Virus record (IMG/VR): IMGVR_UViG_3300028840_003924
Span: 62,001 to 126,000 of that record
DNA length: 64,000 nt
Source of the DNA: a virus
Direction: 5' to 3' (one strand)
Part shown: piece after piece, positions 47,656-62,660 of the stretch
Layout of the letters: every line of letters begins with the position of its first letter
Numbering within the stretch: the stretch's first letter is position 1
The notes under the pieces: generated by a model
Told to the model about the DNA's origin: nothing
What the model saw: the letters and a program-made list of their open reading frames with translations, nothing else
The model's database searches: none
Translations under genes and position numbers: made by a program

Positions 47656-47951
47656 ACTGGCAAGCCATCTTTACCGATCCGATGACGTATATCCTCTGGT
47701 ACGTCGTGTCCCTGTTGGTGGGCGCTCCTGTTTTCCGACACGCTTTCAAAAAAGCCAAAGTGCCGAAACACTACAGCGGCGAAAACAACTATGCCGAGAT
47801 GTACGCCAGAGTCATCACGCTCTTAGTCTTCTCGCCCGTCACCGTTCCGGCCTACCTCATTATTTATTGGTTTCTCTGGCGGTGTTTGTTCAAGCCCGGA
47901 GCAGAATACATTCTGCCTGACTACGCACGATTACCAGAGGGGGAAGAGTGA
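47652..47951 (+). CDS. Two-segment membrane protein
   Basis: 99 residues with GGAG upstream and a 4-nt overlap with the gene before. Hydrophobic segments at about 12-27 (YILWYVVSLLVGAPVF) and 52-77 (VITLLVFSPVTVPAYLIIYWFL). Function unknown. It starts the run of anchored proteins to 56987. Confidence 0.55.
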   Translation: MNWQAIFTDPMTYILWYVVSLLVGAPVFRHAFKKAKVPKHYSGENNYAEMYARVITLLVFSPVTVPAYLIIYWFLWRCLFKPGAEYILPDYARLPEGEE

Positions 47952-47953
47952 CC

Positions 47954-48352
47954 ATGGAGTTTTGCATTATAACCGCTATCGTCATTGGGCTGATCCTCTG
48001 GGCGATCTTCTCGCCAACAAAGAAGCCAGAGAAGCCAAACCCCGATGTCGGGAAGTCACCGCAGCAGTTGATCTTCGAGAGTTACCTCGACAACATCTTC
48101 GCATATCTCGACAACAAGAAGATGGTGAAGAACCCATACACCGGCGAGTACGAAGACCCCAGCGAAACCTTCATGCGGGAGATCGAAGAGGGTATCGGTG
48201 TTCCCGAACAAGGCGCTGACGACTTCAGACGATCCATGGCTGCCTTCGTTGCCATGACTGTTCAACATAAAGGGTCTGAGGCCCTCACATGGCATTCTAA
48301 CTCCGACATGGAGAAAGCCATTAACGCCTACATCGTGTTGTGTCGGCCATAA
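47954..48352 (+). CDS. Membrane-anchored PrkA-like segment
   Basis: 132 residues (a GTG 6 nt upstream is an alternative start). A hydrophobic anchor lies at about 1-20 (MEFCIITAIVIGLILWAIF). Residues 35-125 read LIFESYLDNIFAYLDNKKMV, NPYTGEYEDPSETFMREIEE, GIGVPEQGADDFRRSMAAF and end SDMEKAINAYI. This closely follows the part of PrkA-family Ser kinases after the AAA-like core (LFxxYLxNVxAY, NPxTGExxxPxExxMRxIEExIG, DFRxEI, HExLxxAIxxKLF). There is no P-loop or kinase domain, so it cannot be a kinase. It could compete with or tether host PrkA at the membrane. That role is inference. Confidence 0.65.
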   Translation: MEFCIITAIVIGLILWAIFSPTKKPEKPNPDVGKSPQQLIFESYLDNIFAYLDNKKMVKNPYTGEYEDPSETFMREIEEGIGVPEQGADDFRRSMAAFVAMTVQHKGSEALTWHSNSDMEKAINAYIVLCRP

Positions 48353-48362
48353 GGAACTTGTC

Positions 48363-49172
48363 ATGATCATTCTCAAAATCATCGTCTTCATCGTCGCCAT
48401 CGCCCTCATCGCCTGGGCCTGCGGTTTGCTCAAAAGGAAGAAGGTTTCAGCCTCCACCAGAGGAATGACCTTCCAAGAATACTTAGACAACTGTAAAACG
48501 CCACCAGAAGCGAAGGTGGAGGACGAGAAGTTTATGAAGGCCGTGAAGGGAGCGTTGGACAAGCCCCAGAAACCACTTGGTGCCAAAGAAATACAACAGC
48601 GAATCAGCGAATTGCAGAAGAAGCTTATAACCGACTACGGCTATATCCCTTGCGGTGTAGGCTCCCTCGCTCAAGATGATAAGAAGGAGGAACCCAAGGA
48701 CCCACAAGAGATCACCGAAGCCGACATCAATACTTGGGTCGAAGTGTCCTCCCCACGTATATATGAAGGAACATGGCAGCGAAGACAACTCGTAAAAATC
48801 AACGCCGGTCCAGGCGACTACCAATACAAAACGAAGCATCCATCCTATTCAAACAAGCCGGAGTATTGGGCTAATGCTCGGAAAACAAAAGAGCAAAAAC
48901 CAACCCCCAAGTGTCCTTCGTGCCGAGGGAACTCAATGCACTTTGGTTGTGACCTCTGTCACGGCTCAGGTTACCTGCCGGTCGGCCAACAGGCCATCGA
49001 CGAAAAGTTCATCGGTCACACAATCGAAGTCAAGCAGCAACACAACACCAAATGGGTGCGACGTGAGTTGGTAGAAATCCAACTAGACTCGCTCCTACCA
49101 TTCGTTTGCAAACCCAAAGAAGGACAAGGCGCACACCAGACAATCCGCTGGGGGGAAGCTCGTCCCTTATAG
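48363..49172 (+). CDS. Membrane protein with two IEVR/ARP domains and zinc knuckle
   Basis: 269 residues. Anchor at about 2-22 (IILKIIVFIVAIALIAWACGL), helical linker, then IEVR/ARP domain 1 at about 118-178 (WVEVSSP, TWQRRQLVKI, YWANARK), a DnaJ-like zinc knuckle CPSCRGNS...CDLCHGSGYLP at about 185-208, and domain 2 at about 216-269 (IGHTIEVK, KWVRRELVEI, RWGEARPL). FQEYLDN at about 40 echoes FESYLDN in the preceding protein. Same architecture as the giant protein downstream. The domain is SH3-like by pattern, not a named family I can cite. Confidence 0.65.
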   Translation: MIILKIIVFIVAIALIAWACGLLKRKKVSASTRGMTFQEYLDNCKTPPEAKVEDEKFMKAVKGALDKPQKPLGAKEIQQRISELQKKLITDYGYIPCGVGSLAQDDKKEEPKDPQEITEADINTWVEVSSPRIYEGTWQRRQLVKINAGPGDYQYKTKHPSYSNKPEYWANARKTKEQKPTPKCPSCRGNSMHFGCDLCHGSGYLPVGQQAIDEKFIGHTIEVKQQHNTKWVRRELVEIQLDSLLPFVCKPKEGQGAHQTIRWGEARPL

Positions 49173-49186
49173 AAGAGGTATGAACT

Positions 49187-52100
49187 ATGGACGCCACACA
49201 ATTCATCGCCATCGCCATCATTGCGCTCCTCGTATGGCTCCTCTACAAGAAGAGGAAGGCGAAACGGCTCGTTGCGAAAACGGACATCCCCTACCCAACC
49301 TCACCACCAGACCCCGAACTCGACCACTTGGTGGAGGAGTTCGATAAGTCATTCGAGAAGGGCATGGAATCCTGCTGTCAAATCGAAGGAATGCTCAAGG
49401 CAGCGAAAAAGAGTGGCACACCATTCGTCAAAACAGAACCGACCGTCGACGAGTCGCACATCGGAAAGATGATCGAAGTGCGTGGGACCATGAACCCACA
49501 CGACAACCAAGCAAAATGGAGATTGCGAAAGCTGTTCGAGATTGTCCCCGAGAAGGATGCCCCTTACGGGTGCGAAAACATATGTGCTTCGGGTGAAACC
49601 ATTTACTGGTGCGAAGCTCGACCCATCCAAGAAAAGAAACCCGAACCACCCCCAACGGTCGGCATAGCCAAGGATGACGAGTTCCCCATCGGCAGCCGAG
49701 TCATTGTCGATGAGCCTATCGCCGACTATCGCCGCCGTGGTAAGGTCACCGGAACAAGGGAGGGTGAACGTGCTGTTCGACTTGATGATAACGACTCCGA
49801 CCATTCCAAATTCTACCCGGTCAGTCGGCTAGAACTCGAAATGCTCCCCGAGGGAACGCCCGTCAAGATCGACAAAGGGAACAAAGAAGACGGCCCCAAA
49901 GAATCATTTTGGGCCAGCTTCGATGGGCTCACCGGGAAGGTTCGTCAAAGCAGAGAACTCGGATGTCACATCGATATGGATGGGCCTAACCCGCCACATC
50001 CCGGTGCCTATCTTAGTAGAAAACATCTTAGGGTTATCAGCAAGCCGCTGAAGTTTCCGGAAGTGTCCGTTGAAGAGTGCCTCATGGGTCATACGAGTGA
50101 TCCAGCATATCGGAAAATCAAAGTTGCGACCGAAGTCGACAGGTCCTTCATCGGCAAGATGATCGAAGTGCGAGGTATCGGAGAGAACGAAGTACGAGAA
50201 TGGCTCCAACGTAAACTGAAGCGGATTGAGGACCGAGAGCAGAACCGCTATGTTTGCGAGAACGCAGTCAATCCGAAGATCGATTCCCTATGGCACGAAG
50301 CCCGACCTCTTACGTGCGACAATGAGCCGATACTCTTAACCCACAAGGGAGACCGGGGTGAAGTGCGAGAGTGGCGTCTCCCAGGTGGTGCTTACCATCG
50401 GACAGATGGACCGGCGTTGATCCGCACCTACGACAAAGAGCAGACGTTCCAACTGGCAAGTAGAACTCCACGCAAAGATATCCGCTACGTCCGAGAAGAA
50501 GTGTGGTTCGACAATGGAAAGATGCACCGCAAAAACGCTCCTGCTCAAATTTTCTATGATGGCGATAAACGCATCGTTTACGCAGCATGGTGGGAAGGTG
50601 GAGAACAAACCCACGACAGCCTGTGTCGTAGCGACCGTGTGCGGGTTCAACAGGCCCACCGTGCCCAAAGAGAGGGAACGGTGAAGGGCATCTATGAGGA
50701 CAATTCGATCTTGGTCGAATGTACTGATGGTTCCACCGCAGGCGAATATCGACCAATCTATTCTCTCATCAACGGAAAGATCGACAATCCGTCCTACGGC
50801 TCCGTGGACGAATCGTTCATCGGTAAATGGATTGATGTCCGTGATACAAGGTCTTACGAAGGCACATGGCAACGGAGGAAACTTTTAGCTATCGACTCCG
50901 ATAGGTCCGAACACTATTATTGCCTGCATCCAAAGGGAGGCACCCTTACCACCAACTGGCCTGAAGCCCGACCGGCAAGTGAAAACAAGCCGACCGAAAA
51001 GTGTCCGCACTGTGAAACTCTCAAACGCCAAGCCGATTGTAAGCTTTGCTTCGGCGCAGCTTACTTGCCAGCAGGGCCAGGGCCTGTGCGGGAAGAGGTC
51101 AAAGAGGTTGAAGAAGTTGACGAATCCTACGTCGGCAAGATGATCGAGGTGCGGGCACTTGCAAGTAAAAACTGGGTCACGGTGGCCGACATCGGCAGGA
51201 TGATTGAAGTTCGGGATTACCCAGATCGCCCATGGCAGACAAGACAACTCGTCGACATTCGACCAGCATCCGCCTACCGTTACCAATGTAAAGATGACAA
51301 GATCGACGACGGTAAGAGGAGTTGGAGGTATGCCCGTCGAATCAAAGAGAAGGCACCACCAGGATGCTTAGGACCCAATACGTACCAGTACTACATCAAC
51401 AAGGAAGTAGAGGCTTCCGACGACGGGCAAGAATGGAAAGTGGTAGTGCTGACGCATTACCGAGAAGATTCCGACTACCCTTTCATAGCATGTAGAGATC
51501 ACACCAAATGGAGGTTCGCCCGACCAGAATGCCAGACCAAATGCCCCCAATGTGGAATTGCTATGTGCCACAGACCGGGCCATGAATGCGCCACTTGCCC
51601 CCAAATGGATCACTGTGCCAATCACGCCGAGGGTTGCACGTCGTGGGAAGTGGTCACCGAAGAACAAATCGGTAAGATGATCGAAGTGCGAGATCATCAC
51701 ACCCACGACTGGAATGAAAGGGAGTTGGTCGAAATCAACAAGGGCCAGTTCAGAGCTTACCTTTGTAAGAAGTTTGGCAACCCTCTCAGCACAGCCGAGT
51801 GGAAGTTCGCACGACTAATCAAAAAAGAGCCACCGAAGGGCCTGATTGGCAAACAACATATCGGCAAGATGATCGAGGTGCGTCAAGGTGATGGCGACGT
51901 ATGGGAACGCCGGAAGTTGCTCCGGTTCACTGATAAGGATGAATACGGACAAGGCGGCGTGCGACCCTACGTTTGCCAAGTTCCCGCCCAGAAGGTAGTG
52001 TCCCGATCAGAGCACTGTTGGATACAAGCCCGACCAATCGCAACCGGAACACCCTGTAGCCAAGCAGAGCCACCGGCCAAAAAGAAGCCCGAACACGTCT

Positions 52101-53251
52101 GTGGTTTACAAGGCTTCGGCCACAGCCTGAACGATGTGTGCCCAGCATGTGAAGCTCAGGCAAAGGAGTGGGAAGAGAAGAAAGAGAAGAGTACACCACC
52201 ACCGAAGCAGGAGGAGGCGGGCCAACCCATGGTTGGTGACAGTCCGCTGTTCTTGCTTGCCAGAGACCCAACCAACTTGAAGAAGACGAAGTGCGAATTT
52301 GGCGATTTGAATTGCTACGTCGAAGACGACTGCTTCCACAGGATGACCAGCTACCACCTTCCCGATGGCCGTTGCCATCGGGAAGATGGTGCGCCTGCAT
52401 ACAAGGCGTTTTACAGGGTCGGCTACGAGAAGGTTTCGACCCCACAAGGCGAACAACAATTCACTCTGGTTGTCCGATGGTACAAAGACGGCGTACCTCA
52501 TCGGGAAGACGGGCCAGCCGCCATCTGGTATCTCCACGGCAAAGAGGTACACAGAGAATACTATCTGGAAAACTGTTGTCTGGAAAGGTTCACTTGGGAG
52601 GTGCGTCGATCACTAGGCCACAGAAGTGTGGCATGCCATACAAATGATCGCTCGGAATGGCGGTTAGGAACTGCCGATGGACTGCTTCATCGCATTGAAG
52701 GGCCTGCTGTTGAATGGACTAACGGGCTGCACGAGTGGTGGCTCTTTGGAGTCCATGTGGCCGTAAAAGATCACAAAGAGTGGGTGAAGCTCCTCGAATG
52801 CGAAGGGTCGCAGAAGATTAAAGAGAATCTCCCCGTTTACGTTAAACAAAACCCGGAGATCGACCAAAGGATACCAAGGGAACGGAAGGAAGTGGTGGAC
52901 GAGTCAGTTGCCCACGGTTTCACGCCCGAAGAGATGAGACCTTACGTCGGCAAAGAAGTCGAAGTAAGAGAAGTCAGGAACAATAGGTGGTATCCTCGCA
53001 CACTAGTCAAGATCGAGGGTGACAAGCCTCCATTCGTCACCCCCGGAAACGCTCGTTGGTCATTCGCCCGACCGATCAAAGTGGTGGACGAATCCTTCAT
53101 CGGAAGGAGAATCGAAGTGAGAAACGATCCCGATGGTACGTGGTGGCTACGGGAACTTGTTTCAATCAACGCCAATGGGGAGTTTCTTTGCAAGGTGGAT
53201 CAGGGTACTTACCCATGGAAGTTCGCTCGGCCCATCCAAGAGACATCCTAA
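49187..53251 (+). CDS. Giant membrane-tethered mosaic, ten IEVR/ARP domains
   Basis: 1354 residues. N-terminal anchor at 5-20 (QFIAIAIIALLVWLLY), then IEVR/ARP domains at about (nt) 49444-49630, 50135-50310, 50808-50975, 51118-51186 (truncated), 51186-51345, 51386-51530 (divergent, EVEASDDGQEWK), 51655-51825, 51850-52040, 52935-53077 and 53088-53240. Each runs (H/F)IGKMIEVR, W-x-x-R-x-L-V-x-I, Y-x-C, W-x-x-ARPI. Between them are two KOW/SH3-like barrels (49675-50030), HRxDGPA repeats (50335-50600, 52250-52760), and zinc knuckles (CPHCETL...CKLC; CPQCGIAMC...CATC; VCPAC). A repeated adhesive or scaffold protein on the cytoplasmic side of the membrane is the simplest reading. No catalytic motif is seen. 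Confidence 0.7.
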   Translation: MDATQFIAIAIIALLVWLLYKKRKAKRLVAKTDIPYPTSPPDPELDHLVEEFDKSFEKGMESCCQIEGMLKAAKKSGTPFVKTEPTVDESHIGKMIEVRGTMNPHDNQAKWRLRKLFEIVPEKDAPYGCENICASGETIYWCEARPIQEKKPEPPPTVGIAKDDEFPIGSRVIVDEPIADYRRRGKVTGTREGERAVRLDDNDSDHSKFYPVSRLELEMLPEGTPVKIDKGNKEDGPKESFWASFDGLTGKVRQSRELGCHIDMDGPNPPHPGAYLSRKHLRVISKPLKFPEVSVEECLMGHTSDPAYRKIKVATEVDRSFIGKMIEVRGIGENEVREWLQRKLKRIEDREQNRYVCENAVNPKIDSLWHEARPLTCDNEPILLTHKGDRGEVREWRLPGGAYHRTDGPALIRTYDKEQTFQLASRTPRKDIRYVREEVWFDNGKMHRKNAPAQIFYDGDKRIVYAAWWEGGEQTHDSLCRSDRVRVQQAHRAQREGTVKGIYEDNSILVECTDGSTAGEYRPIYSLINGKIDNPSYGSVDESFIGKWIDVRDTRSYEGTWQRRKLLAIDSDRSEHYYCLHPKGGTLTTNWPEARPASENKPTEKCPHCETLKRQADCKLCFGAAYLPAGPGPVREEVKEVEEVDESYVGKMIEVRALASKNWVTVADIGRMIEVRDYPDRPWQTRQLVDIRPASAYRYQCKDDKIDDGKRSWRYARRIKEKAPPGCLGPNTYQYYINKEVEASDDGQEWKVVVLTHYREDSDYPFIACRDHTKWRFARPECQTKCPQCGIAMCHRPGHECATCPQMDHCANHAEGCTSWEVVTEEQIGKMIEVRDHHTHDWNERELVEINKGQFRAYLCKKFGNPLSTAEWKFARLIKKEPPKGLIGKQHIGKMIEVRQGDGDVWERRKLLRFTDKDEYGQGGVRPYVCQVPAQKVVSRSEHCWIQARPIATGTPCSQAEPPAKKKPEHVCGLQGFGHSLNDVCPACEAQAKEWEEKKEKSTPPPKQEEAGQPMVGDSPLFLLARDPTNLKKTKCEFGDLNCYVEDDCFHRMTSYHLPDGRCHREDGAPAYKAFYRVGYEKVSTPQGEQQFTLVVRWYKDGVPHREDGPAAIWYLHGKEVHREYYLENCCLERFTWEVRRSLGHRSVACHTNDRSEWRLGTADGLLHRIEGPAVEWTNGLHEWWLFGVHVAVKDHKEWVKLLECEGSQKIKENLPVYVKQNPEIDQRIPRERKEVVDESVAHGFTPEEMRPYVGKEVEVREVRNNRWYPRTLVKIEGDKPPFVTPGNARWSFARPIKVVDESFIGRRIEVRNDPDGTWWLRELVSINANGEFLCKVDQGTYPWKFARPIQETS
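52358..52385. repeat. 12-bp inverted repeat in the mosaic gene
   Basis: CTTCCCGATGGC, loop CGTT, exact reverse complement; encodes LPDGRCHRED of an HRxDGPA repeat. An outer CACC/GGTG pair follows after a small bulge, like the other hairpins. Confidence 0.7.
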
Positions 53252-53253
53252 CC

Positions 53254-53478
53254 ATGAAGAAACCAAAGAAGATTGGCATCTACCTCTGCACTTATCCTGA
53301 TGGCAAGCAGACATTGGAGGTCATCAATTACGATCCGGGGTTCCCCAGGCGTGACAAGGAATTGCGAGTTGTGACCCCAGAGGAAGAAGGCGACGGCGAA
53401 CCGCTCCACCACCCGTGTTTTAACGGGTGTAAATGGGAGGGCCCTTTGACGCCAAAAGACGTGAAAAAGTCATCTTGA
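53254..53478 (+). CDS. Small unknown protein
   Basis: 74 residues starting MKKPKKIGIYLCTYPDGKQT. Three Cys including CFNGCKWEG at about 54-62. It starts 2 nt after the mosaic gene's stop, so coupled expression is likely. No family recognised. Confidence 0.5.
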   Translation: MKKPKKIGIYLCTYPDGKQTLEVINYDPGFPRRDKELRVVTPEEEGDGEPLHHPCFNGCKWEGPLTPKDVKKSS

Positions 53479-53502
53479 CCCGAAATCGAGAAAGGAAGTA
53501 CA

Positions 53503-53850
53503 ATGCCCAAGTATAAGGTGATCCTAGAGGGGTGCGATAGCCGTATTTTCGAGGTAGCCGACGACTACGAGCCCAAAGGGGAGACCATCGTCGACACCTG
53601 GGAGGAAGCGAAGGAAAAGGTTTGTAACTACCTCCTTGAGGAAGCTGGTAGGAACATTCAGGCCCTTCGCCACTTCAACGACTGCAAGACCTTCGAGGAT
53701 CACAACGGTGCCCCAGCCGCCACTGTTTGGCCTCCACCACAAATGCATTTCGACACGATTGGCCAAGTCATGGAATGGCTTTACCCCAAAGACCCAGCCG
53801 AACCCGAAAATGAAAAGGAAGTCGACGGTGACGAGGAAAACAAAGGCTAG
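53503..53850 (+). CDS. Small protein related to the 62036 peptide
   Basis: 115 residues with AAAGGAAG upstream. KYKVILEGCDSRIFEVADDYEPKGETIVDT at about 3-32 matches KFKVTFEGHGQIEEVPDDYEP in the short protein at 62036, so the two share a first domain. A helical part and an acidic tail follow. Function unknown. Confidence 0.55.
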   Translation: MPKYKVILEGCDSRIFEVADDYEPKGETIVDTWEEAKEKVCNYLLEEAGRNIQALRHFNDCKTFEDHNGAPAATVWPPPQMHFDTIGQVMEWLYPKDPAEPENEKEVDGDEENKG

Positions 53851-54073
53851 TACTCGGCGATATCTTTGCGCCGGTCTGATCTGTTCTGCGATCTTGATGG
53901 TGACAGGTCTGGTCATCGGCCTGCTGGATGCCTGTATCTTTGAATGGGACGAGAGGTTGATGGGCGTCATCACCCTTTTCTATGTCGTCTCTTTCGTCTT
54001 TGTCACGTTCTTCTTTTGGCGCATTTGCCATTACGATTTCCAACGGTGGTTAGAAGAAAGGAAGATACAGTGA
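53810..54073 (+). CDS. Two-segment membrane protein
   Basis: 87 residues from ATG 53810, nested by 41 nt in the end of the previous gene. Basic start MKRKSTVTRKTKASTRR, hydrophobic segments at about 17-40 (YLCAGLICSAILMVTGLVIGLL) and 49-72 (MGVITLFYVVSFVFVTFFFW). ATG/GTGA overlap with the next gene. Function unknown. Confidence 0.55.
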   Translation: MKRKSTVTRKTKASTRRYLCAGLICSAILMVTGLVIGLLDACIFEWDERLMGVITLFYVVSFVFVTFFFWRICHYDFQRWLEERKIQ

Positions 54074-54918
54074 GTAAGAAGGTCACCAGAAAACACATCG
54101 GCAAAGTCGTTATGGTTCGGAACCATTCCGACAAGTGGAAGGAACGTAAGTTAATCGATCTTGATGGTGGTTCTGGATATCGTTATCGCTGTCAGGGTGG
54201 TGACGGCTGCGGGATATACTACTGGAAGTACGCCAAGCCGTTGAAGAAGAAAAAGAAGAAGTGCCCCATCACCGAAGAACACGTCGGTCAGTATATCCTT
54301 GTGCGGGACTACAAATGGGAGAGTTGGAAAGGCCGACAGTTGGTGCGCATTGCGAAAGGTGCCAAATCGCCCTTTGTTTGCAAGCGCCCAGGTAGTGAGA
54401 GCACAGAAACTTGGAAGCACGCCAAACTCGAAAAGAATCGTTCCGAGGTCACTCCGAGTCACATTGGTTCAACAGTTTACGTCTCTGACACTGGTGGTAG
54501 TGCTTGGTGTCGCCGGACACTGAGCGGGGTCAGGCCCGAGTCATCATACCCATACAGAACAGGCCGTAGCGGTTGCTGGCAACACGCCCGATTGGATCGG
54601 CCTGATGGTCCGCCCCCGACAAGAAAAGAGGCGAAAAAGGCTGTGGTGGAGAAAACTGAGGTAGAGCAAAACCAACCAACATCAGGAGGTGGGGTAGTTG
54701 CTCTTATTGTCCTTGCCGTCATCATAGTTGGCCTTGTCGCCGCTCTCTTTGGGTTTCTTGGTGGGACTGCGCTGTCCGTTCAAGAAGTCAAAGACTGGAA
54801 AAATTCATCCGCATATTGGGAGAACCAAGCCGACCTGCTCAACCAGCAGTTGGACTACCACACAAAGAAGAACAAACAAATCCCGTTACCAGAAATTCCT
54901 CAAGGAGAATCGCCATGA
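54070..54918 (+). CDS. Three IEVR/ARP domains plus membrane segment
   Basis: GTG start at 54070 overlapping the previous stop (GTGA) with AAGGAAG upstream; 282 residues. Domains at about 7-57 (HIGKVVMVR, KWKERKLIDL, YYWKYAKPL), 66-118 (HVGQYILVR, WKGRQLVRI, TWKHAKLE) and 125-173 (HIGSTVYVS, WCRRTL, WQHARL). A single membrane segment at about 208-235 (GVVALIVLAVIIVGLVAALFG) follows a charged linker, then a 45-residue tail. Here the domains are N-terminal and the anchor is near the C-terminus, the reverse of the other three proteins; in all, the domains are probably cytoplasmic. Confidence 0.65.
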   Translation: MSKKVTRKHIGKVVMVRNHSDKWKERKLIDLDGGSGYRYRCQGGDGCGIYYWKYAKPLKKKKKKCPITEEHVGQYILVRDYKWESWKGRQLVRIAKGAKSPFVCKRPGSESTETWKHAKLEKNRSEVTPSHIGSTVYVSDTGGSAWCRRTLSGVRPESSYPYRTGRSGCWQHARLDRPDGPPPTRKEAKKAVVEKTEVEQNQPTSGGGVVALIVLAVIIVGLVAALFGFLGGTALSVQEVKDWKNSSAYWENQADLLNQQLDYHTKKNKQIPLPEIPQGESP

Positions 54919-55475
54919 AGAAGTTACTCGTCGCCGGTGGCGCTGTTGTTGTCCTACTCATCTTTATCTTTTGCGTCTGCATCGGTACGGTGAACAGGGA
55001 GGTCACCCTTCGCACGGGCTTTGAAGCCTCCGAAAAGAACGTGACCATCTCCTTCGACAAGATGTGGAAGACGTTGGCCAACCAAGCCGAGATCAACGAG
55101 AAGTACAAGGACGACTTCAAGGACGTTGCGCCGGAACTTGTGGAAGCCCGCTACAAAGGCGGGACCGGCAAGCTCATGGCGTGGATTCAGGAACACAATC
55201 CCGAGTTCACCCCGGCCATGTACACGAAGCTGATGGACTCGGTCGCCCAAGAGCGAACCGTCTTCAACCGTGAGCAACAGAAGATGATCGACTACCACCG
55301 GGAGCACACTCAGTTCGTGCGCAAACCGGTCCAGAAGATGATCCTGGGAATGTTCGGTGATTCCTCCGAACTGACCATCTCGCTTATCACTTCCTCGAAA
55401 ACAGAGGACGTTGTCGCTACCGGCAAGGACGACGACGTGAATCTCTTTGACAAGAAGAAGCCGGAAAAGGAATGA
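54915..55475 (+). CDS. LemA-like membrane-anchored protein
   Basis: 186 residues from ATG 54915 with GGAG upstream (4-nt overlap with previous). Anchor at about 2-24 (KKLLVAGGAVVVLLIFIFCVCI), then a helical domain with NREVTLRTGFEASEKNVTIS, FDKMWKTLANQAEINEKYK and later ERTVFNREQQKMIDYHREH. The NxEVxLRxxxEAxxxNVxxSFDxMWK pattern occurs in phage proteins distantly like LemA. Function is unknown, but it recurs in large phages next to the membrane protein type at 55818. Confidence 0.6.
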   Translation: MKKLLVAGGAVVVLLIFIFCVCIGTVNREVTLRTGFEASEKNVTISFDKMWKTLANQAEINEKYKDDFKDVAPELVEARYKGGTGKLMAWIQEHNPEFTPAMYTKLMDSVAQERTVFNREQQKMIDYHREHTQFVRKPVQKMILGMFGDSSELTISLITSSKTEDVVATGKDDDVNLFDKKKPEKE

Positions 55476-55479
55476 GACG

Positions 55480-55821
55480 ATGCAAGCAATTCAACACGGA
55501 CGGTCTTGGGAAGCGCCGAGACGGGAAAACCTCATAAGGGTGGCAGACAAACTTTGTGCTGCCTCCTATGGGCTTCTTCACGGGACCGAGAAGGCTCGTT
55601 ATAGGTGCCTGAGTAACACCATCAACGAGTTTGAAGCGGTAGCGGGTGAGCAACCCCAAGTTCAAATGCGATCCTGGGAGACGCCGAACACCTTACAGAG
55701 GTTGGCTTACGGACTTCTCCATGCCGCTTGGACAATCATTCGTGGCCGACCAAACAACCGGTTCGCCGAACTGGAAGTCGCTATCCAGAAATACAGGAAG
55801 TTCCGAGAAGAAAACGAATGA
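55480..55821 (+). CDS. Small protein with internal duplication
   Basis: 113 residues; GGAATGAG before the ATG. RSWEAPRRENLIRVADKLCA at about 8-27 and RSWETPNTLQRLAYGLLHAA at about 65-84 are repeated, as is YGLLH, so two copies of one about 50-residue helical unit make up the protein. No membrane segment. Function unknown. Stop overlaps the next ATG. Confidence 0.55.
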   Translation: MQAIQHGRSWEAPRRENLIRVADKLCAASYGLLHGTEKARYRCLSNTINEFEAVAGEQPQVQMRSWETPNTLQRLAYGLLHAAWTIIRGRPNNRFAELEVAIQKYRKFREENE

Positions 55822-56987
55822 TCGTTTGGTTTTTACTCCTGATCCCCATTGTCACCGCCGCCGTCCTTTGGATCGGCTGGGCGCAAAAGGTGACATGGTG
55901 GGAACTGGCGGCACAATTAGGAGTTAGCTTCTTCATCGTTCTGATCGCCAAACTCTGTGTAGGGACCTTCCGCACGTCCGATCTCGAATACTGGACAGAG
56001 GTCGTCAATCAAGCCGAGTACCACGAGGCATGGACTGAACGATACACCACCACCGAAACCTATACGGATGGTAACGGCGACCTACAAACAAGAGTCGTCA
56101 CCCGCACCCGTCGACACCCGCCGTTCTGGCGACTGATCCTCTGTGACGGACGCAAGGTTAGCGTCAGTGAAAAGAAGTACAAACTGGTCGTTAGGCGGTT
56201 CGGCAACGAAAAGGAGGTAGACCTCAGCCATTGGGGACAATGCTCCTGGGGCGATGGTGACATGTACGTCACGAAATACAATGGCCCAAGAGAAAAGATG
56301 CTGACCGCCACCACAACACATCGATATACTAACAAGGTCCAGGTGTCAAAGAGTATCTTCAACTTCCCCGAATTAACCAAAGAGGATGTGGAGTTCTACC
56401 AACTCTTTGAATATCCCGGCGTTGGCGATCCCACAACGACACCCTGCATCCTGGGTACCTACTCAAAGAAGGCGGCGGCAGAGGAAGAGTTGCGACGATG
56501 TAACGCTGAACTTGGCAGGGCTAAACAGGTCCGCATGTGGATACTCATCTTCAAAAACCAACCGCTTGACGCTGGGGTCATGCAGGAAAGCTACTGGTGT
56601 GGTGGCAATAAGAATGAACTCGTTCTCTGCGTCGGCCTCGACGACGCAGAGAGCGTCCAGTGGGCTTACTGCTTTTCGTGGACCGAAGTCGAAAGTCTCA
56701 AGACCAGCGTGCGCAACTTCGTGCAAAGTCAAACCAAATTTGATGCCTACAAAACAAGCAAGCATATGGCAAAGGAAGCCAGCAGCCAATGGGTTCGGAA
56801 AGAGTTCGCCGACTTCAACTACCTGACCATCGAACCATCTGTGTGGGGTATGTGGATTGCTGGCGTCTTGATCTTCCTACTGAATGTCGGCATGGGCATC
56901 TGGATCGTACTTAATGAACACGAAGTATTGGAAGAGGGGGCCACCCCTTCTCGCCATCGCTATCGATCCTTCCGTCACTACCGATGA
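55818..56987 (+). CDS. Conserved phage integral membrane protein
   Basis: 389 residues from the overlapping ATGA. Hydrophobic segments at about 3-20 (VWFLLLIPIVTAAVLWIG), 30-50 (LAAQLGVSFFIVLIAKLCVG) and 340-362 (MWIAGVLIFLLNVGMGIWIV). The long middle domain has DLEYWTEVVNQAEYHEAWTE, a Thr-rich strand, and GDMYVTKYNGPRE, THRYTNKVQVSKSIFNFPEL. This type (YWxxxVxxAxYxExW, RYxNxVQxSxSxFNF) recurs in large phages. Role unknown; the LemA-like neighbour is often near it. Confidence 0.6.
   Translation: MIVWFLLLIPIVTAAVLWIGWAQKVTWWELAAQLGVSFFIVLIAKLCVGTFRTSDLEYWTEVVNQAEYHEAWTERYTTTETYTDGNGDLQTRVVTRTRRHPPFWRLILCDGRKVSVSEKKYKLVVRRFGNEKEVDLSHWGQCSWGDGDMYVTKYNGPREKMLTATTTHRYTNKVQVSKSIFNFPELTKEDVEFYQLFEYPGVGDPTTTPCILGTYSKKAAAEEELRRCNAELGRAKQVRMWILIFKNQPLDAGVMQESYWCGGNKNELVLCVGLDDAESVQWAYCFSWTEVESLKTSVRNFVQSQTKFDAYKTSKHMAKEASSQWVRKEFADFNYLTIEPSVWGMWIAGVLIFLLNVGMGIWIVLNEHEVLEEGATPSRHRYRSFRHYR
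56634..56662. repeat. 11-bp inverted repeat in the membrane-protein gene
   Basis: TCTCTGCGTCG, 7-nt loop GCCTCGA, CGACGCAGAGA. Encodes LCVGLDDAESV. Shorter than the main hairpin set and with a longer loop, so possibly chance. Confidence 0.5.
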
Positions 56988-56996
56988 GGATTTACC

Positions 56997-57254
56997 ATGT
57001 ACAAGGTGATCGAGTTCATGTTCGGGGGCGGCTCGTCAGCCCACTACGAATACTACATCCTTAACACTGAGGCTGATGGTGGCGAAACGATGTCTGATCT
57101 CAACGATAAATGGAAGCGGAGAAAAAGATCGTTTGATGGACGTTGGGTCATAATGCCCAACGGTAAACCCTACACATTCGCCCACAAACCAGATGCCGAT
57201 GCATTCGCCGCAGCACTTAACTTCGGGGCAACACAACTGGAGAATAAACCATGA
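56997..57254 (+). CDS. Small unknown protein
   Basis: 85 residues; basic middle (DKWKRRKRSFDGRWVI), alpha/beta, no membrane segment. Stop overlaps the next start. No family recognised. Confidence 0.5.
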   Translation: MYKVIEFMFGGGSSAHYEYYILNTEADGGETMSDLNDKWKRRKRSFDGRWVIMPNGKPYTFAHKPDADAFAAALNFGATQLENKP

Positions 57255-57469
57255 AGCAATCACTGATCGACAGTCTAGTTGGCCTTTCCTTTGATGACGC
57301 CACCGAGAAAATCAAGGAGAGCGGTTTCGACCTGATGGTTGTTGACGTGGGGGCGGTAATTACCGAAATTGCCCGTCCTAACATCATCATTGTGGGCGTA
57401 GAAAACCAAATGGTCAAAGAGGCTCGTGCCGGTGACCCTACACAACTGGAAACCGAACCGGAGCAATGA
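57251..57469 (+). CDS. Small I78/potato-inhibitor-like protein
   Basis: 72 residues. LVGLSFDDATEKIKESGF, DLMVVDVGAVIT and ARPNIIIVGVENQMVKEARAG follow the I78-type inhibitor layout (LxGxxxxxAxxxI, T...RPxRxxxxVxxxxVxxVxxG). These small folds bind serine proteases in bacteria and recur in phages. Without the usual conserved residues the call is tentative. The region also has a 12-nt palindrome CGGTAATTACCG. Confidence 0.4.
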   Translation: MKQSLIDSLVGLSFDDATEKIKESGFDLMVVDVGAVITEIARPNIIIVGVENQMVKEARAGDPTQLETEPEQ

Positions 57470-57708
57470 AGATCGAACTCGTAGCCCTACTCTTCATAGC
57501 CCTGATACTGAAAGGAGCCTTCCAAACCGGAGTCGGATGTAGTAGAGGCTACAAACCTCCAGACCAAGAAACGCTTCGTATCCACCAGGAAATGATACGA
57601 GCCCGAATGAACCGACAAAATCAACCTGTGATTATTCACAGATCGAATATGAGGAGAGCGAAAACGTTTCACTACCCACCACCACGTTTACGGACAAGCG
57701 TACCATGA
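57466..57708 (+). CDS. Small exported or anchored protein
   Basis: 80 residues; hydrophobic start MKIELVALLFIALILKGAF and then TGVGC at about 21-25, a possible but non-standard lipobox. Basic, Pro-rich C-terminus. Overlaps both neighbours by 4 nt. Function unknown. Confidence 0.5.
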   Translation: MKIELVALLFIALILKGAFQTGVGCSRGYKPPDQETLRIHQEMIRARMNRQNQPVIIHRSNMRRAKTFHYPPPRLRTSVP

Positions 57709-57902
57709 CAGCAGAAGGTCAAGCGGCAGCAATTCAATGGTATGAAGAAACCATTGACGAACTGCAAGCAACGTTGCTTCGGGCAACCCGAGAAGATGTC
57801 AGACAGTATATCACCCAACGGATCACGAAACTTAGAGCACATGTAAAGAAGCTGAAGGCCGTAGAGCCCTCCGAGCCTCGTGTGCTCGTTTTACAGACGT
57901 AG
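57705..57902 (+). CDS. Small helical protein
   Basis: 65 residues; one long amphipathic helix with WYEETIDELQATLLRATRED and a basic second half. No family recognised. Part of the overlapping gene run. Confidence 0.45.
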   Translation: MTAEGQAAAIQWYEETIDELQATLLRATREDVRQYITQRITKLRAHVKKLKAVEPSEPRVLVLQT

Positions 57903-57910
57903 GAAATCAA

Positions 57911-58267
57911 ATGCCATTCCAACTCGTAACACTCGACGTTCCCGGTGGCGAAGTCAAACGGGACAACGAGGTGTACGTCGTAGTAGACAACACCTTCCTC
58001 CAGAACCTCACCGTGAGCCAAACAACATTGCATCCCGGCCAATCCACCCAAGGCCACTCGCACGACGGCCTTGATGAAGTATACATCTTCATCAGCGGTC
58101 AAGGGCGAATGGAACTTGATGATGCACTGCTAGAGGTGAAGGCGGGAGATATGGTCCTAATCCCTGGTGGAACCTTCCATCGTGTTCACCAAGGCATGGA
58201 CATCCCCAGCAAAGACCTGATCTTCACCTGTATCTTCCAACAGTACGAAAGAGAAGAAGATAAATGA
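57911..58267 (+). CDS. Cupin-domain protein
   Basis: 118 residues. GHSHDGLDEVYIFISGQGRM at about 49-68 is cupin motif 1 (HxH...E...G) and GDMVLIPGGTFHRVHQ at about 78-93 motif 2 (G-x5-PxG-x2-H). The His and Glu residues could bind one metal. Single-domain cupins serve as small-molecule dioxygenases, isomerases or binding proteins; substrate unknown. Overlaps the bL12 gene by 4 nt. Confidence 0.8.
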   Translation: MPFQLVTLDVPGGEVKRDNEVYVVVDNTFLQNLTVSQTTLHPGQSTQGHSHDGLDEVYIFISGQGRMELDDALLEVKAGDMVLIPGGTFHRVHQGMDIPSKDLIFTCIFQQYEREEDK

Positions 58268-58662
58268 GCCAAACCACCACCACCGATTACCCGGATGACA
58301 TCCGGGTAATCGGTGATAAGATCGCTGGCCTTACATGCGCCGAGGCGCAAGAACTCAACGAGTACTTGAAGTACACCTACGGGATCGAACCACCGGCAAA
58401 GCCGACGCAATACCTCCCTGAAAAAGAAGAGGAGGTGGAACCCGACAAGCCCGACAGCTTCAAGGTTGTTCTCCAAAGCTACGGAGACAACAAGGTCAGC
58501 GTCATCAAGGTGATCCGTCAGATCACCGGCTTGGCGCTGAAAGCTGCCAGGGACTTCGTGAATGAGGTTCCCCAAGTAGTCAAGGAAGACTTGTCGAAAC
58601 CAGACGCCGAAGCCCTCAAAGAACAACTGGAGGTAGCTGGGGGTGTCGTTACATTAGAATAA
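58264..58662 (+). CDS. rplL: Ribosomal protein bL12 (L7/L12)
   Basis: 132 residues, near full length. N-terminal dimerisation part at about 10-48 (IRVIGDKIAGLTCAEAQELN, EYLKYTYGIEPPA), an acidic/Pro hinge (about 49-65: LPEKEEEVEPDKPD), and the C-terminal domain at about 66-132: FKVVLQSYGDNKVSVIKVIR, TGLALKAARDFVNEVP, KEDLSKPDAEALKEQLEVAG, GVVTLE. That follows bacterial bL12 (FxVxLxxxGxxKxxVIKxVRxxTGLxLKEAKxLVExxP, AExxKxxLExAG) closely. bL12 forms the ribosome stalk that recruits elongation factors; phage copies could enter host ribosomes. A 16-bp hairpin lies at the start of the gene. Confidence 0.88.
   Translation: MSQTTTTDYPDDIRVIGDKIAGLTCAEAQELNEYLKYTYGIEPPAKPTQYLPEKEEEVEPDKPDSFKVVLQSYGDNKVSVIKVIRQITGLALKAARDFVNEVPQVVKEDLSKPDAEALKEQLEVAGGVVTLE
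58281..58315. repeat. 16-bp perfect inverted repeat at the start of the bL12 gene
   Basis: CACCGATTACCCGGAT, loop GAC, then the exact reverse complement. It encodes TDYPDDIRVIGD, 6 codons after the start. At mRNA level it could slow early translation or terminate transcription; bases are CACC/GGTG. Confidence 0.85.
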
Positions 58663-58674
58663 AGGAAACAAACC

Positions 58675-59436
58675 ATGCAAATGGGATTAGAACAAGAGTT
58701 CTTCCTGGTCAACGGTGACGATCAGATAATCACGATACCAACCGGCAGCGGTTTGCCCCATGACGAGTGCGGTTGGCTACTTGAAGCCCGTGGCAAACCC
58801 TTCGGCAACATCACCGAAGCCGTCTTCAGCCTGAAAGCCGATGTGCATCGACTCGACCGGTCAATCATGAAAACCAACGCATCTACAAACCAACTACACC
58901 GAATGGTCGCCGAACCCTTCCGTACCATTCCACGTACTGTTCGGACAGCAGCCAGTCGCAACTATGCCAAAGGGTTGACCCATTACCAAAACCTTTACGG
59001 ATACCCACACCACAACTTGCCCGAAGGTGTCTTCGCCGCAGGTATCCATATCACCTTCAGCCAAATACGAACCGTCGCCACCAAGCACGGTGATGTGGAG
59101 TATTGCGAGAACTTCGATTGGCCCCGTCTCTTCCGAATGCTTGATGCCGAATTTACAACCGAGATCGCCAATGCCCGGCGTCTCCCCGGCTTCTACGAAA
59201 TAAAGAGTACCGGAATGGTCGAGTACAGATCATTACCGAACAACCTCGACCTGGAGGCGATCCCTGATCGAGTGACCGAGGTCTTCCGCCGCTGGGGGCG
59301 AAAAGAACCGGAAAACTACCTGCCGCCCGTAATCCCCAAAGAAGTTTTCGAGAGAGCGGTGGCGACCGAAGGTGGTAGCGGTTGCCCAAACTGCGGCTTC
59401 GATGCCGAGAGCGGACAATTCGCAGGGACACAGTAA
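58675..59436 (+). CDS. COOH-NH2 ligase-type amidoligase-like protein
   Basis: 253 residues. GLEQEFFLV at about 4-12 is the GxEPEFF-type start of phage COOH-NH2 ligases; SGLPHDECGWLLEARGKP (about 25-42), GVFAAGIHITFS (about 117-128) and STGMVEYRSLPN (about 182-193) fit the GxExR and GxHxHF metal-binding motifs of that amidoligase fold. Such enzymes use ATP to link amino or carboxyl groups to peptides or cell-wall parts. C-terminal CPNCGFD is an added half zinc motif. Substrate unknown. A gap of 12 nt to bL12. Confidence 0.6.
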   Translation: MQMGLEQEFFLVNGDDQIITIPTGSGLPHDECGWLLEARGKPFGNITEAVFSLKADVHRLDRSIMKTNASTNQLHRMVAEPFRTIPRTVRTAASRNYAKGLTHYQNLYGYPHHNLPEGVFAAGIHITFSQIRTVATKHGDVEYCENFDWPRLFRMLDAEFTTEIANARRLPGFYEIKSTGMVEYRSLPNNLDLEAIPDRVTEVFRRWGRKEPENYLPPVIPKEVFERAVATEGGSGCPNCGFDAESGQFAGTQ

Positions 59437-59439
59437 GAC

Positions 59440-59631
59440 ATGGAACGACAAACCCTTTTGTTGTTGCAAGAACGCACCAAAGAAGAACATGCGCTAGTGC
59501 TTCAAATGCTTCGCACATTACTACCAGATGGAAAGTTTAGCTTCTCGGCCAATGCGGGAGAACATGGCGGCTTTGTAACCGACGATCCGGAAACGTATCA
59601 GTACTGGAAATCACACTTAGGACTTTGGTAA
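59440..59631 (+). CDS. Small unknown protein
   Basis: 63 residues; helical N-terminus (LLLQERTKEEHALVLQMLRT), then ANAGEHGGFVTDDPETYQYW. Stop overlaps the next ATG. No family recognised. Confidence 0.45.
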   Translation: MERQTLLLLQERTKEEHALVLQMLRTLLPDGKFSFSANAGEHGGFVTDDPETYQYWKSHLGLW

Positions 59632-60245
59632 TGCCCATCTACGCAAAAGATCAACCGAAAGCAGAATACACCCCAGTACAATGCGTCGGCATGTACTGCG
59701 GACACCCCTCTTTCTTCCCAGAAGGGGAGGTCAAAGACCTGAAGACGTTGTTCGCCGATCTCGTGACAAGGGAATGGAGCAGCAGAGCAAATAGAGGCGT
59801 CCACGCATCCGCCCTCGGTTCGACATGGGTTATCGTCGTCTGGTGGAATGCAGGATGGGTCGAGTTCGGCTATGAAGCAGCAAAGGAAGTCATAGCCAAG
59901 TCCGACGTGAAGTTCGATGCAATTAAACCTATGCCGAATGAGAATGTAAAGCAAGGAACACCAAACCAATTCAGAGATACTACCCAAGAACCCTTAAATC
60001 CGGAATGGCTAATCCCCTCTTGTCTCGTTCTCGACAACCAGCAGCAAGAGCGACTGGCTAAATTTGTGGAAAAGTACCTGACACGAGAGATGATCGAGGC
60101 TGCGAGAGAAGAATCTTGTTCCCCAATTTCGCCCTTGGAGTTTCGCCTGCGAGATGGTAGCATTGTTGATATTGTCACCGCTCATATCGGCGACCACAAA
60201 TGCGACCTCACCCTGGATGATGAAGACAAGCTGGTCCCCGAATAA
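59631..60245 (+). CDS. Unknown 204-residue soluble protein
   Basis: ATG at 59631 in TAATG with the previous gene. QCVGMYCGHPSFFPEGEV at about 18-35, several Trp (VIVVWWNAGW) in the middle, and a beta C-terminus with VDIVTAHIGDHKCDLTLDDE. No membrane segment or signal. Family unknown. Confidence 0.5.
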   Translation: MPIYAKDQPKAEYTPVQCVGMYCGHPSFFPEGEVKDLKTLFADLVTREWSSRANRGVHASALGSTWVIVVWWNAGWVEFGYEAAKEVIAKSDVKFDAIKPMPNENVKQGTPNQFRDTTQEPLNPEWLIPSCLVLDNQQQERLAKFVEKYLTREMIEAAREESCSPISPLEFRLRDGSIVDIVTAHIGDHKCDLTLDDEDKLVPE

Positions 60246-60262
60246 CTAAGGAAAATAAAACC

Positions 60263-60856
60263 ATGAAACGTAGACACTTCATACTCTCCAGCGTCGTGAC
60301 AGCCATCGCCACCACCTTCGGCTGGAAGCCGAAGGTGGTGGCTGAAGAACCCGAACAACCTCGCCCTAGAAAGGGCGATATATGGAAATATCCAGAGACT
60401 GGCGATCTGATTGTGGTGGATAAAGTACGTCTCAAACTGGTTTTCTACCACTTCAAAAAACAACCAGACATCAAACGGGCCATGGCACCCTGGCAGTTTC
60501 GTGATACGTATGTATTCGTTAAACGGAAAGGCTCTGAAGATAACCCAAAGGGTCTGCCCGTTGTCCTGTTCGACGAGAAGGGGAAGATCATCAACGGAGA
60601 GGAACTGTTCAAAGACATCAACTGGACTGTCAAGCCGCCATTTTTTCATTCCGCCACTCGTCGGCGGCGTGCTTGGGTTCCCCAATTAACCCCTATGGCT
60701 CAAACTCGCTGCGCCGGGGCTTGTGTTTTCTGGGGTGAGGTCATGATGGAAAACTATTCGTGGGGACAAATCGATGTTGACCCCACGGAACATTCCGTGG
60801 TAGCCTACCGTTACGCAAGCCAAGAAGGTGTGACTAACCACGTCACTATCAACTAA
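60263..60856 (+). CDS. Tat-signal secreted protein, paralogue 1
   Basis: 197 residues. MKRRHFILSSVVTAIATTFG with twin Arg 3-4, a hydrophobic core and KVVAEEP as a plausible cleavage site (VVA-EE) looks like a twin-arginine signal. A conserved block follows at about 96-115 (PKGLPVVLFDEKGKIINGEE), then beta strands with TRCAGACVFWGE. Same order in the proteins at 61405 and 62196: signal, P-x-(G/N)L-x-V(V/I)xF block, C-x-V-W/WG strand, beta tail. Likely exported folded. Function unknown. Confidence 0.6.
   Translation: MKRRHFILSSVVTAIATTFGWKPKVVAEEPEQPRPRKGDIWKYPETGDLIVVDKVRLKLVFYHFKKQPDIKRAMAPWQFRDTYVFVKRKGSEDNPKGLPVVLFDEKGKIINGEELFKDINWTVKPPFFHSATRRRRAWVPQLTPMAQTRCAGACVFWGEVMMENYSWGQIDVDPTEHSVVAYRYASQEGVTNHVTIN
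60308..60342. repeat. 16-bp perfect hairpin inside the Tat-signal coding region
   Basis: GCCACCACCTTCGGCT, loop GGA, exact reverse complement. It encodes ATTFGWKPKVVA at the end of the signal peptide; the paralogue at 62196 has a similar hairpin at the same place. Confidence 0.85.
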
Positions 60857-60898
60857 CCATATAACCAGTTAATCGCCACTAACGTAAGGAGGGGTAAA

Positions 60899-61402
60899 AT
60901 GTCAGGGAACGTCATTTTCTTCATCGTCGCCAGCGTAACCATTGTTCTGTGGATCATCATCAGTGAAGTGAAGGCAAGACGCAAAAAAAGTGGAAAGATC
61001 ACCAACGACGACATCGGCAGACTCATCGAAGTGCGACAGAAAACATCGCAACAATGGAAGAAGCGGAAGCTCACCAACGTCAACAAAAGTGAACACCCCT
61101 ATACCTGTGAAGAGCCGGGGGATTTGCCCATCCACTGGCGACTCGCTCGACGGTGCAAGGAAACGGACGAGGTCGGCGATTACAACCCAGAGTCTGAAAA
61201 GAAAAACCCCAAAGGAACCGGAACCGTCGTGGGTGGCAAGCTGCTTAAGGGTGGCGAAATGATCGAGGTCCGGACCAGCACGGCACAGCGGTGGAAGAAA
61301 CGCAAGTTCCTAAGCTACCACGCCGAGTTGACTTCACCCTTCTACTGCGAAGAAGCTCCGGGTGAAGGGAAGTACTGGAAACTTGCCCGAAGGACTAAGT
61401 AA
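60899..61402 (+). CDS. Membrane protein with two IEVR/ARP domains
   Basis: 167 residues with AAGGAGG. Anchor at about 5-22 (VIFFIVASVTIVLWIIIS), then domain 1 at about 38-88 (DIGRLIEVR, QWKKRKLTNV, YTCEE, HWRLARRC) and domain 2 at about 117-166 (GEMIEVR, RWKKRKFLSY, FYCEE, YWKLARRT). This is the smallest IEVR/ARP protein in the window and shows the minimal layout. Lies between two of the Tat-signal paralogues. Confidence 0.7.
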   Translation: MSGNVIFFIVASVTIVLWIIISEVKARRKKSGKITNDDIGRLIEVRQKTSQQWKKRKLTNVNKSEHPYTCEEPGDLPIHWRLARRCKETDEVGDYNPESEKKNPKGTGTVVGGKLLKGGEMIEVRTSTAQRWKKRKFLSYHAELTSPFYCEEAPGEGKYWKLARRTK

Positions 61403-61404
61403 CC

Positions 61405-61797
61405 ATGAAACGCAGACACTTCACCTTATCCAACGCCATCGCAGCCATCGGTGCCGCCATTGGCGTGAAAGCAGAAAGGGCGAAAGGGAAAGGTCCTGGT
61501 AACAACCCAAAGAATCTGCCGGTTGTTAAGTTCAAGGAGAGCCTTCTCGCCATTGCAAACGAGAAGGAGCTATTCGAGTACGCAAGCAACCTCCCCGAAA
61601 ATAAGCCGATGGCATACGAAGGGGTCTTAAAATGCCGTGTGTGGGTCGATGTACCTACAAAAAATGATGAGGATGGGCCCTGGTGGGGCGAGACCGGCCT
61701 CGAAATGGAATACACGGCTTTCGACGAGTGGGGTACTGATGGCTTCTTCCTATACCGGGTCGATGAATCGATAGACTTTCCAGTTGCCCACATTTGA
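61405..61797 (+). CDS. Tat-signal secreted protein, paralogue 2
   Basis: 130 residues starting MKRRHFTLSNAIAAIGAAIG with twin Arg 3-4. PKNLPVVKFKESLLAIANEK at about 34-53 is the shared block, then CRVWVDVPTKND and WWGETGLEMEYTAFDEWG. No hairpin in its signal region. It begins 2 nt after the IEVR gene's stop. Function unknown. Confidence 0.55.
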   Translation: MKRRHFTLSNAIAAIGAAIGVKAERAKGKGPGNNPKNLPVVKFKESLLAIANEKELFEYASNLPENKPMAYEGVLKCRVWVDVPTKNDEDGPWWGETGLEMEYTAFDEWGTDGFFLYRVDESIDFPVAHI

Positions 61798-62195: not shown

Positions 62196-62660
62196 ATGAA
62201 ACGTAGAGTTTTTCTCGCAGGGGCAGCAGGGGCAGCCGTCACCACCACCTTGGGCGTCCCGCCCAAGGTGGTGGCTCGTGAAGCTCCCCAAAAGGAACCT
62301 GAAAACCCAGAAGGCTTAGCCGTCATCAAGTTCTCCAAAGACGGCAAGAAAGTCATCAACCTCAAAGAGATCATCGAACATGGAGGAACCCGAGATAACT
62401 TCTTCATGAGTCGAGATGATAAGATCGCTGGGCCAAACGGAATCTTTCTTGAGTGTGCCGTGTGGCTTCGCAAAAAAGATGCCATGGCGGACTGCTGCCG
62501 CCCCTACAATACACCCGGCCTGTATTGGGGTAAGGTAAAGATGCATTACGCTATCGCTGACGATTACGATGTTAGCTTCTATCTCCAAACAACCGAGGAG
62601 TCGCACGCAATCGACTTGCCAAATTTTGACACGGACTTCGAGGTCGACGAGGTTCGGTAG
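62196..62660 (+). CDS. Tat-signal secreted protein, paralogue 3
   Basis: 154 residues. MKRRVFLAGAAGAAVTTTLG is the most typical twin-arginine signal of the three, with KVVAREA as cleavage region. PEGLAVIKFSKDGKKVINLK at about 43-62 is the shared block, then ECAVWLRKKD and GLYWGKVKMHYAIADDYD. A coding hairpin lies at 62242-62274. Likely exported; function unknown. Confidence 0.6.
   Translation: MKRRVFLAGAAGAAVTTTLGVPPKVVAREAPQKEPENPEGLAVIKFSKDGKKVINLKEIIEHGGTRDNFFMSRDDKIAGPNGIFLECAVWLRKKDAMADCCRPYNTPGLYWGKVKMHYAIADDYDVSFYLQTTEESHAIDLPNFDTDFEVDEVR
62242..62274. repeat. 15-bp perfect hairpin inside Tat paralogue 3
   Basis: CCACCACCTTGGGCG, loop TCC, exact reverse complement. Encodes TTTLGVPPKVVA, the same signal-peptide spot as the hairpin at 60308. 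Hairpin bases CCACC/GGTGG recur. Confidence 0.85.

Follow-up and report, generated by a model that had tools for sequence, protein, structure and literature searches.

Why would a phage string as many as ten copies of one small domain along a protein held by a single membrane anchor? The question is raised by a 64,000-nucleotide stretch of viral DNA (hereafter the window), which corresponds to bases 62001-126000 of the 136,132-base virus record IMGVR_UViG_3300028840_003924, to whose contig coordinates prefixed with C1 refer. Four proteins of the window, all encoded on the plus strand and here called A (48363-49172; 269 amino acids), B (49187-53251; 1354 amino acids), C (54070-54918; 282 amino acids), and D (60899-61402; 167 amino acids), hold a repeated unit of 47-64 residues, complete in 16 copies and truncated in one. 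We predict with high confidence that this unit folds into an SH3-like barrel of five strands, probably a Tudor-like one. As judged from profiles and motifs, it belongs, as a divergent branch, to a phage domain that other phages carry as a single copy in small proteins. The answer that we tentatively favor is that these proteins serve as multivalent, membrane-tethered adaptors or scaffolds facing the host cytoplasm.

The initial annotation of the locus counted 17 copies of the unit, distributed as two, ten, three, and two over the four proteins. The counts per protein hold, except that one of the ten copies in B (51116-51178) comprises only the first ~20 residues and then runs directly into the next unit. 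To prevent circularity, a hidden Markov model (HMM) was trained only on the nine units that are complete in B. This profile matched the units of A, C, and D with independent E-values (i-E) of 4e-14 to 7e-6, and the reversed open reading frames (ORFs) used as a control gave nothing comparable (best value, 0.057). The annotation's array of four proteins is correct for the window; past its end, two further proteins, E (C1:127961-130672; 903 amino acids) and F (C1:130689-133751; 1020 amino acids), add one and four units, respectively, for a contig total of 21 complete units and a truncated one in six proteins, at 1-10 units per protein. The B-derived profile assigned 5e-9 to the unit of E and 4e-4, 0.008, and 0.05 to three units of F. 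The weakest of the latter (0.048) is inseparable from background in view of the best reversed-ORF value, and it depends on a wider profile, as does the fourth F unit, which the B-derived profile missed. No match to the units, even at E<=1, came from four records of huge or T4-like phages (1.4 Mb). The copies share a median pairwise identity of 28% (maximum, 48%), with W20, Y/F36, and W50 as near-invariant aromatics. Since the last unit of F lies about 2.4 kb from the right end of the contig, which is probably incomplete, and G, the gene next after F, stops 237 bases short of it, the array may be longer.

AlphaFold2, run on unit B7 (51653-51817) with 26 aligned units and relatives, returned a model with a predicted local distance difference test score (pLDDT) of 94.3 and a predicted template modeling score (pTM) of 0.77, with five strands (residues 9-13, 21-28, 36-40, 43-50, and 52-55) in 60 residues. 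Five antiparallel strands in barrel order within ~50-60 residues, the hallmark of SH3-like small beta-barrels, are thus present in the predicted structures, and the unit alignment supports one consistent fold. A PDB fold search with this model was led by Tudor domains, the best being that of LBR (template modeling [TM] score, 0.68), followed by PHF20, TDRD3, and the bacterial PSHCP. A second model, computed from five single-domain relatives with no window sequences, displayed the same strand order as B7 and again retrieved Tudor domains first in the PDB; its pLDDT of 84 was the best of five models, the other four scoring 55-69. At the sequence level, neither Pfam profiles nor PDB sequences contained a Tudor match to the units, and searches of Pfam, PHROGs, and PDB sequences with units and whole proteins returned chance-level matches only, so that no described domain family was found to fit the unit.

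Relatives were sought by degenerate DNA pattern scans of the 2.9 million viral contigs of IMG/VR and subsequent profile filtering, which yielded about ten single-domain proteins. The unit HMM matched L104, L067, L054, L080, L103, and L097 at 35-45 bits and L078, L046, and L131 at 24, 18, and 17 bits, respectively; L124 and L126 scored lower and were accepted on motif. The six top-scoring proteins share the signature DVGKMVEVR...WxFARIK and the other five EVSxDGxxWxxRxF...WxYAR, the elements W..R.[LF] and W..[AI]R being invariant in units and relatives alike. These relatives are small proteins of unrelated phage contigs with one copy each, and no anchor or array was found among those inspected. 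The significant profile matches and the independent fold model uphold the link to single-domain phage proteins drawn in the initial annotation, and relatives, fold, and anchors together support its description of an expanded, membrane-bound version of them. To call these proteins "common in phages," as it had been put, claims more than the searches returned: beyond the small set retrieved from IMG/VR, tblastn searches of INPHARED with whole B and with single units produced nothing better than one weak match (E 0.07). L046, alone among the relatives, matches phrog_21026, a function-unknown family whose model found no match to the units in the record of the phage under study (G000). A scan for the pattern IGxxIEVR...W returned L104 and chance matches only, and searches for related loci, in viral contigs with the entire B protein and in genome contigs with alignment A3, retrieved none. 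None of 1,389 sampled bacterial genomes from four phyla contained the unit in a search run without a positive control in bacteria, a result that only suggests that the domain is restricted to phages.

By hydropathy, each of the six proteins has a single membrane segment, in agreement with the one anchor per window protein proposed earlier, N-terminal in three and toward the C-terminus in one. The segment spans residues 2-20 of A (48366-48422), 1-19 of B (49187-49243), 3-21 of D (60905-60961), and 209-227 of the 282 residues of C (54694-54750), and it is also N-terminal in E and F. Net charge past the N-terminal helix amounts to +5 in A, +6 in B, +5 in D, +3 in E, and +5 in F, and is about 0 ahead of it. 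Because positive charge follows the helix, the positive-inside rule places the modules of the N-terminally anchored proteins most likely on the cytoplasmic side. The array sits in an arm of the contig (C1:108-136 kb) that is rich in membrane proteins, where 10 of 34 genes encode an N-terminal helix versus 6 of 122 in the rest of the contig (by simple gene picking), and these genes form a large same-strand cluster. Directly upstream of A, 47948-48352 encodes a membrane-anchored protein with a fragment of the PrkA serine kinase C-terminal domain (E 6.6e-18). Within the cluster, 58264-58662 specifies a homologue of ribosomal protein bL12 (Pfam Ribosomal_L12, E 4.7e-25). Three genes around D (60263-60856, 61405-61797, and 62196-62660) share near-identical hydrophobic MKRRxF... 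starts that resemble signals for twin-arginine export, with an NPxxLxVxxF motif after them; none has a Pfam match.

The units are interspersed with other modules in most of these proteins. In A, the N-terminal helix is followed by unit A1 (48711-48884), a CxxC cluster, and unit A2 (48996-49166), and this block of unit, cluster, and unit is common to A and B (BLASTP E 3e-21). B reads, after its helix, as unit B1 (49445-49624), two KOW-like barrels (49676-50038), unit B2 (50135-50308), a first block of MORN-like repeats (50357-50572), a third KOW-like barrel (50615-50770), unit B3 (50804-50974), a CxxC...CxxC cluster (51002-51052), the truncated B4, units B5 (51176-51340), B6 (51383-51526; a divergent copy with the motif DGQEW), B7, and B8 (51845-52036), a second MORN-like block (52337-52738), and units B9 (52934-53074) and B10 (53084-53233); its MORN-like repeats number five. 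C, whose start codon is GTG, a correction to the earlier reading, carries its three units (54082-54240, 54268-54429, and 54448-54594) ahead of the helix and a ~55-residue tail behind it. The two units of D lie at 60998-61153 and 61226-61393. E combines 11 KOW-like barrels with its unit; F joins its 4 units to 5 KOW-like barrels and 2 MORN-like repeats; and G consists of MORN-like repeats only. KOW-like and MORN-like serve here as descriptive terms: the companion barrels gave weak matches to the KOW, ribosomal L21e, and RimP C-terminal SH3 profiles (E 0.0004-0.005), below Pfam cut-offs (for KOW, 18.2 bits at best versus a gathering cut-off of 22.3). An assignment of the HREDGPA repeats to MORN_2 (PF07661) was rejected, with no match at E<=1. 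The same phage encodes further HREDGPA (MORN-like) repeat proteins at L013:9785-11896, L010:156-1208, and G000:C1:23388-23981, again with no PF07661 match.

By its gene content, the phage that carries the window is a large, uncultured, tailed phage of the T4-like type. Its terminase is about 29-44% identical to those of huge and T4-like phages, and baseplate and tape-measure genes are also present. The terminase-based search for relatives yielded a 17-kb fragment and a 94.7-kb contig that is 99.96-100% identical across bases 10-94,673 and ends before the unit region, and neither allowed the array to be compared between phages. Promoter and terminator scans gave no more than shuffle-level results, and Rfam no match. 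Elsewhere, an M16 peptidase gene adjoins a gene for a NADAR-domain protein (44345-46059), and portal-like and glycosyltransferase/methyltransferase-like proteins encoded on the minus strand (L010:11321-13954 and L011:13315-15615) contain long insertions that look like putative inteins.

How, then, might such an array work? We give somewhat less than an even chance to the adaptor or scaffold reading stated at the outset. It would hold that a single domain was multiplied into the present set of copies and joined with KOW-like barrels, MORN-like repeats, and CxxC clusters, and that the one helix of each protein tethers these modules to the inner membrane, turned toward the cytoplasm. Many weakly binding barrels on a membrane leash would then gather one or a few partners, candidates being proteins of either phage or host, or else nucleic acid, along the inner face of the host membrane during infection. 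Such barrels are binding modules, and placing many of them along one leash would confer avidity and local concentration; from this we infer ligand binding, multivalent recruitment, and a purpose in infection. In a related and possible, if doubtful, scenario, the anchored proteins would be built by exchanging binding modules of three or four kinds (Tudor-like barrels, KOW-like barrels, MORN-like repeats, and zinc knuckles), as a combinatorial membrane-surface system that would coat the inner face of the host membrane and thereby organize infection or disarm membrane-associated defense. As far as our searches reach, no described phage system has such a combined anchored architecture.

Several observations weigh against the adaptor or scaffold reading. 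The computation pinpoints no ligand or partner, and the fold is that of a general-purpose binding barrel, so that the "scaffold or decoy" role suggested in the initial annotation remains a proposal. The Tudor fold matches are individually weak, the best having an E-value of 0.11 and none in the PDB fold search reaching <=0.001, as is usual for barrels as small as the unit; the fold class is therefore an argument from topology rather than a demonstration of Tudor function. Where a Tudor cage has four or five conserved aromatics, the units have the three near-invariant ones, among which, by strand order, W20 alone sits at the barrel end where Tudor cages form. Methyl-reader function is thus unsupported and cannot be assumed. 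The membrane helices are predictions from hydropathy, and the charge that supports the cytoplasmic side proposed earlier for A, B, and D leaves C undecided, in which the units precede the helix with no N-terminal signal. Finally, a second multi-copy array was not found in the viral pattern scans, which see part of what exists, and conservation of the architecture therefore cannot be demonstrated.

Other explanations draw on the same features. The main rival, which we regard as unlikely, is a counter-defense sponge or decoy, in which the barrels would bind host immune signals, or mimic the target of a host defense protein and retain it at the membrane, their multiplication raising capacity or evading variation. 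The high divergence among copies is consistent with diversification, the known sponges Acb4, Tad1, and Tad2 are small phage proteins, and a protein labeled as a Tad2-like domain protein ranks among the top viral fold matches. In L104, moreover, a Tad2-like gene (4343-4624; Pfam E 4e-27) lies immediately ahead of the single-unit gene (4677-5069); since Tad2 is a known Thoeris sponge, this adjacency is a lead to counter-defense, although a single case. L067 and L054 encode their units in small proteins among PD-(D/E)XK exonuclease, AAA_24, and DUF669 genes. Tad2 structures are also absent from the top 50 PDB fold matches, and published sponges are soluble, defined oligomers whose pockets lie between protomers, an arrangement that differs from single barrels strung along a membrane leash. 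Single anchors in a large same-strand membrane-gene cluster might instead point to superinfection exclusion or host takeover by membrane proteins that would act on the envelope machinery of the host from its cytoplasmic face. Such exclusion is often the work of small membrane proteins encoded by phages, but the known ones are single and small rather than modular arrays of 900-1350 residues, and the sequence contains no pointer to a DNA-injection target, which makes this role rather improbable.

A tether for RNA, ribosomes, or RNA polymerase, with KOW-like, SH3-like, and zinc-knuckle modules bringing nucleic acid or the translation machinery to the membrane, would make sense of the CxxC clusters, the weak KOW, L21e, and RimP matches, and the bL12 homologue encoded in the same cluster. 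Those matches fall under Pfam cut-offs, however, the adjacency of bL12 may be incidental, and the mixed net charge of single units (-2 to +7) implies no uniform basic surface; we consider such a tether quite improbable. Neutral expansion by recombination, with a copy number that carries no function, could account for the truncated copy and for the arrangement of two units around a CxxC cluster that recurs in A and B. We rate it as very unlikely: the copies are old, as their low median identity indicates, yet W20, Y/F36, and W50 have been kept, and 21 complete units are still open over more than 10 kb of phage genome.

Should the adaptor or scaffold reading hold, its interest would lie in a different way of acting on the host. 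What phages are known for is small inhibitors of a single domain; long modular, membrane-tethered barrel arrays would be closer to eukaryotic scaffold proteins. Our analysis also supplies an initial profile and a predicted fold for a family of phage domains left unmatched or unnamed in Pfam and PHROGs. With these, the single-copy members, some of which adjoin recombination or Tad2-like genes, become testable.

The closest known counterparts of the units are the single-domain phage proteins, which resemble them in motif spacing, profile match (up to 45 bits), and predicted strand order. They have one copy each, whereas the units of this phage are anchored, occur 1-10 per protein, and are mixed with other modules. 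The predicted fold of the units resembles that of the Tudor SH3-like barrels of LBR, PHF20, TDRD3, SMN, and PSHCP (TM 0.5-0.68), and both have a tryptophan just ahead of strand 2, but there is neither a significant sequence match nor a conserved full aromatic cage in the units. Bacterial chromo-like SH3-fold domains are Tudor-like barrels that occur in tandem, 2-6 per protein, along with other modules, and tandem SH3 barrels in bacteria reach 2-14 per protein (PMC5906684). Both kinds are described as secreted, the chromo-like domains consistently so and endowed with an aromatic cage (PMC5906684); the units, in contrast, are phage-encoded and anchored, the cage is not conserved, and a cytoplasmic location is indicated for them, with no signal-peptide architecture and a charge distribution that puts the modules of A, B, D, and F inside (by hydropathy only). 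The phage protein Nip, which inhibits an NAD-degrading defense system, has two predicted SH3-like domains and an HU-like dimerization domain (PMC11984713). Compared by description, Nip is like the B-type proteins in having more than one SH3-like domain and differs in that its HU-like domain stands in place of anchor and array. The Tad2 and Acb4 sponges, like the unit, are small, beta-rich, and phage-encoded, and a Tad2-like gene adjoins one of the relatives; they differ in their fold descriptions and in pockets that depend on oligomerization. Set against these systems, the fold itself is known, and what appears to be new is a phage-encoded, membrane-anchored, and probably cytoplasmic array of such barrels combined with KOW-like and MORN-like modules.

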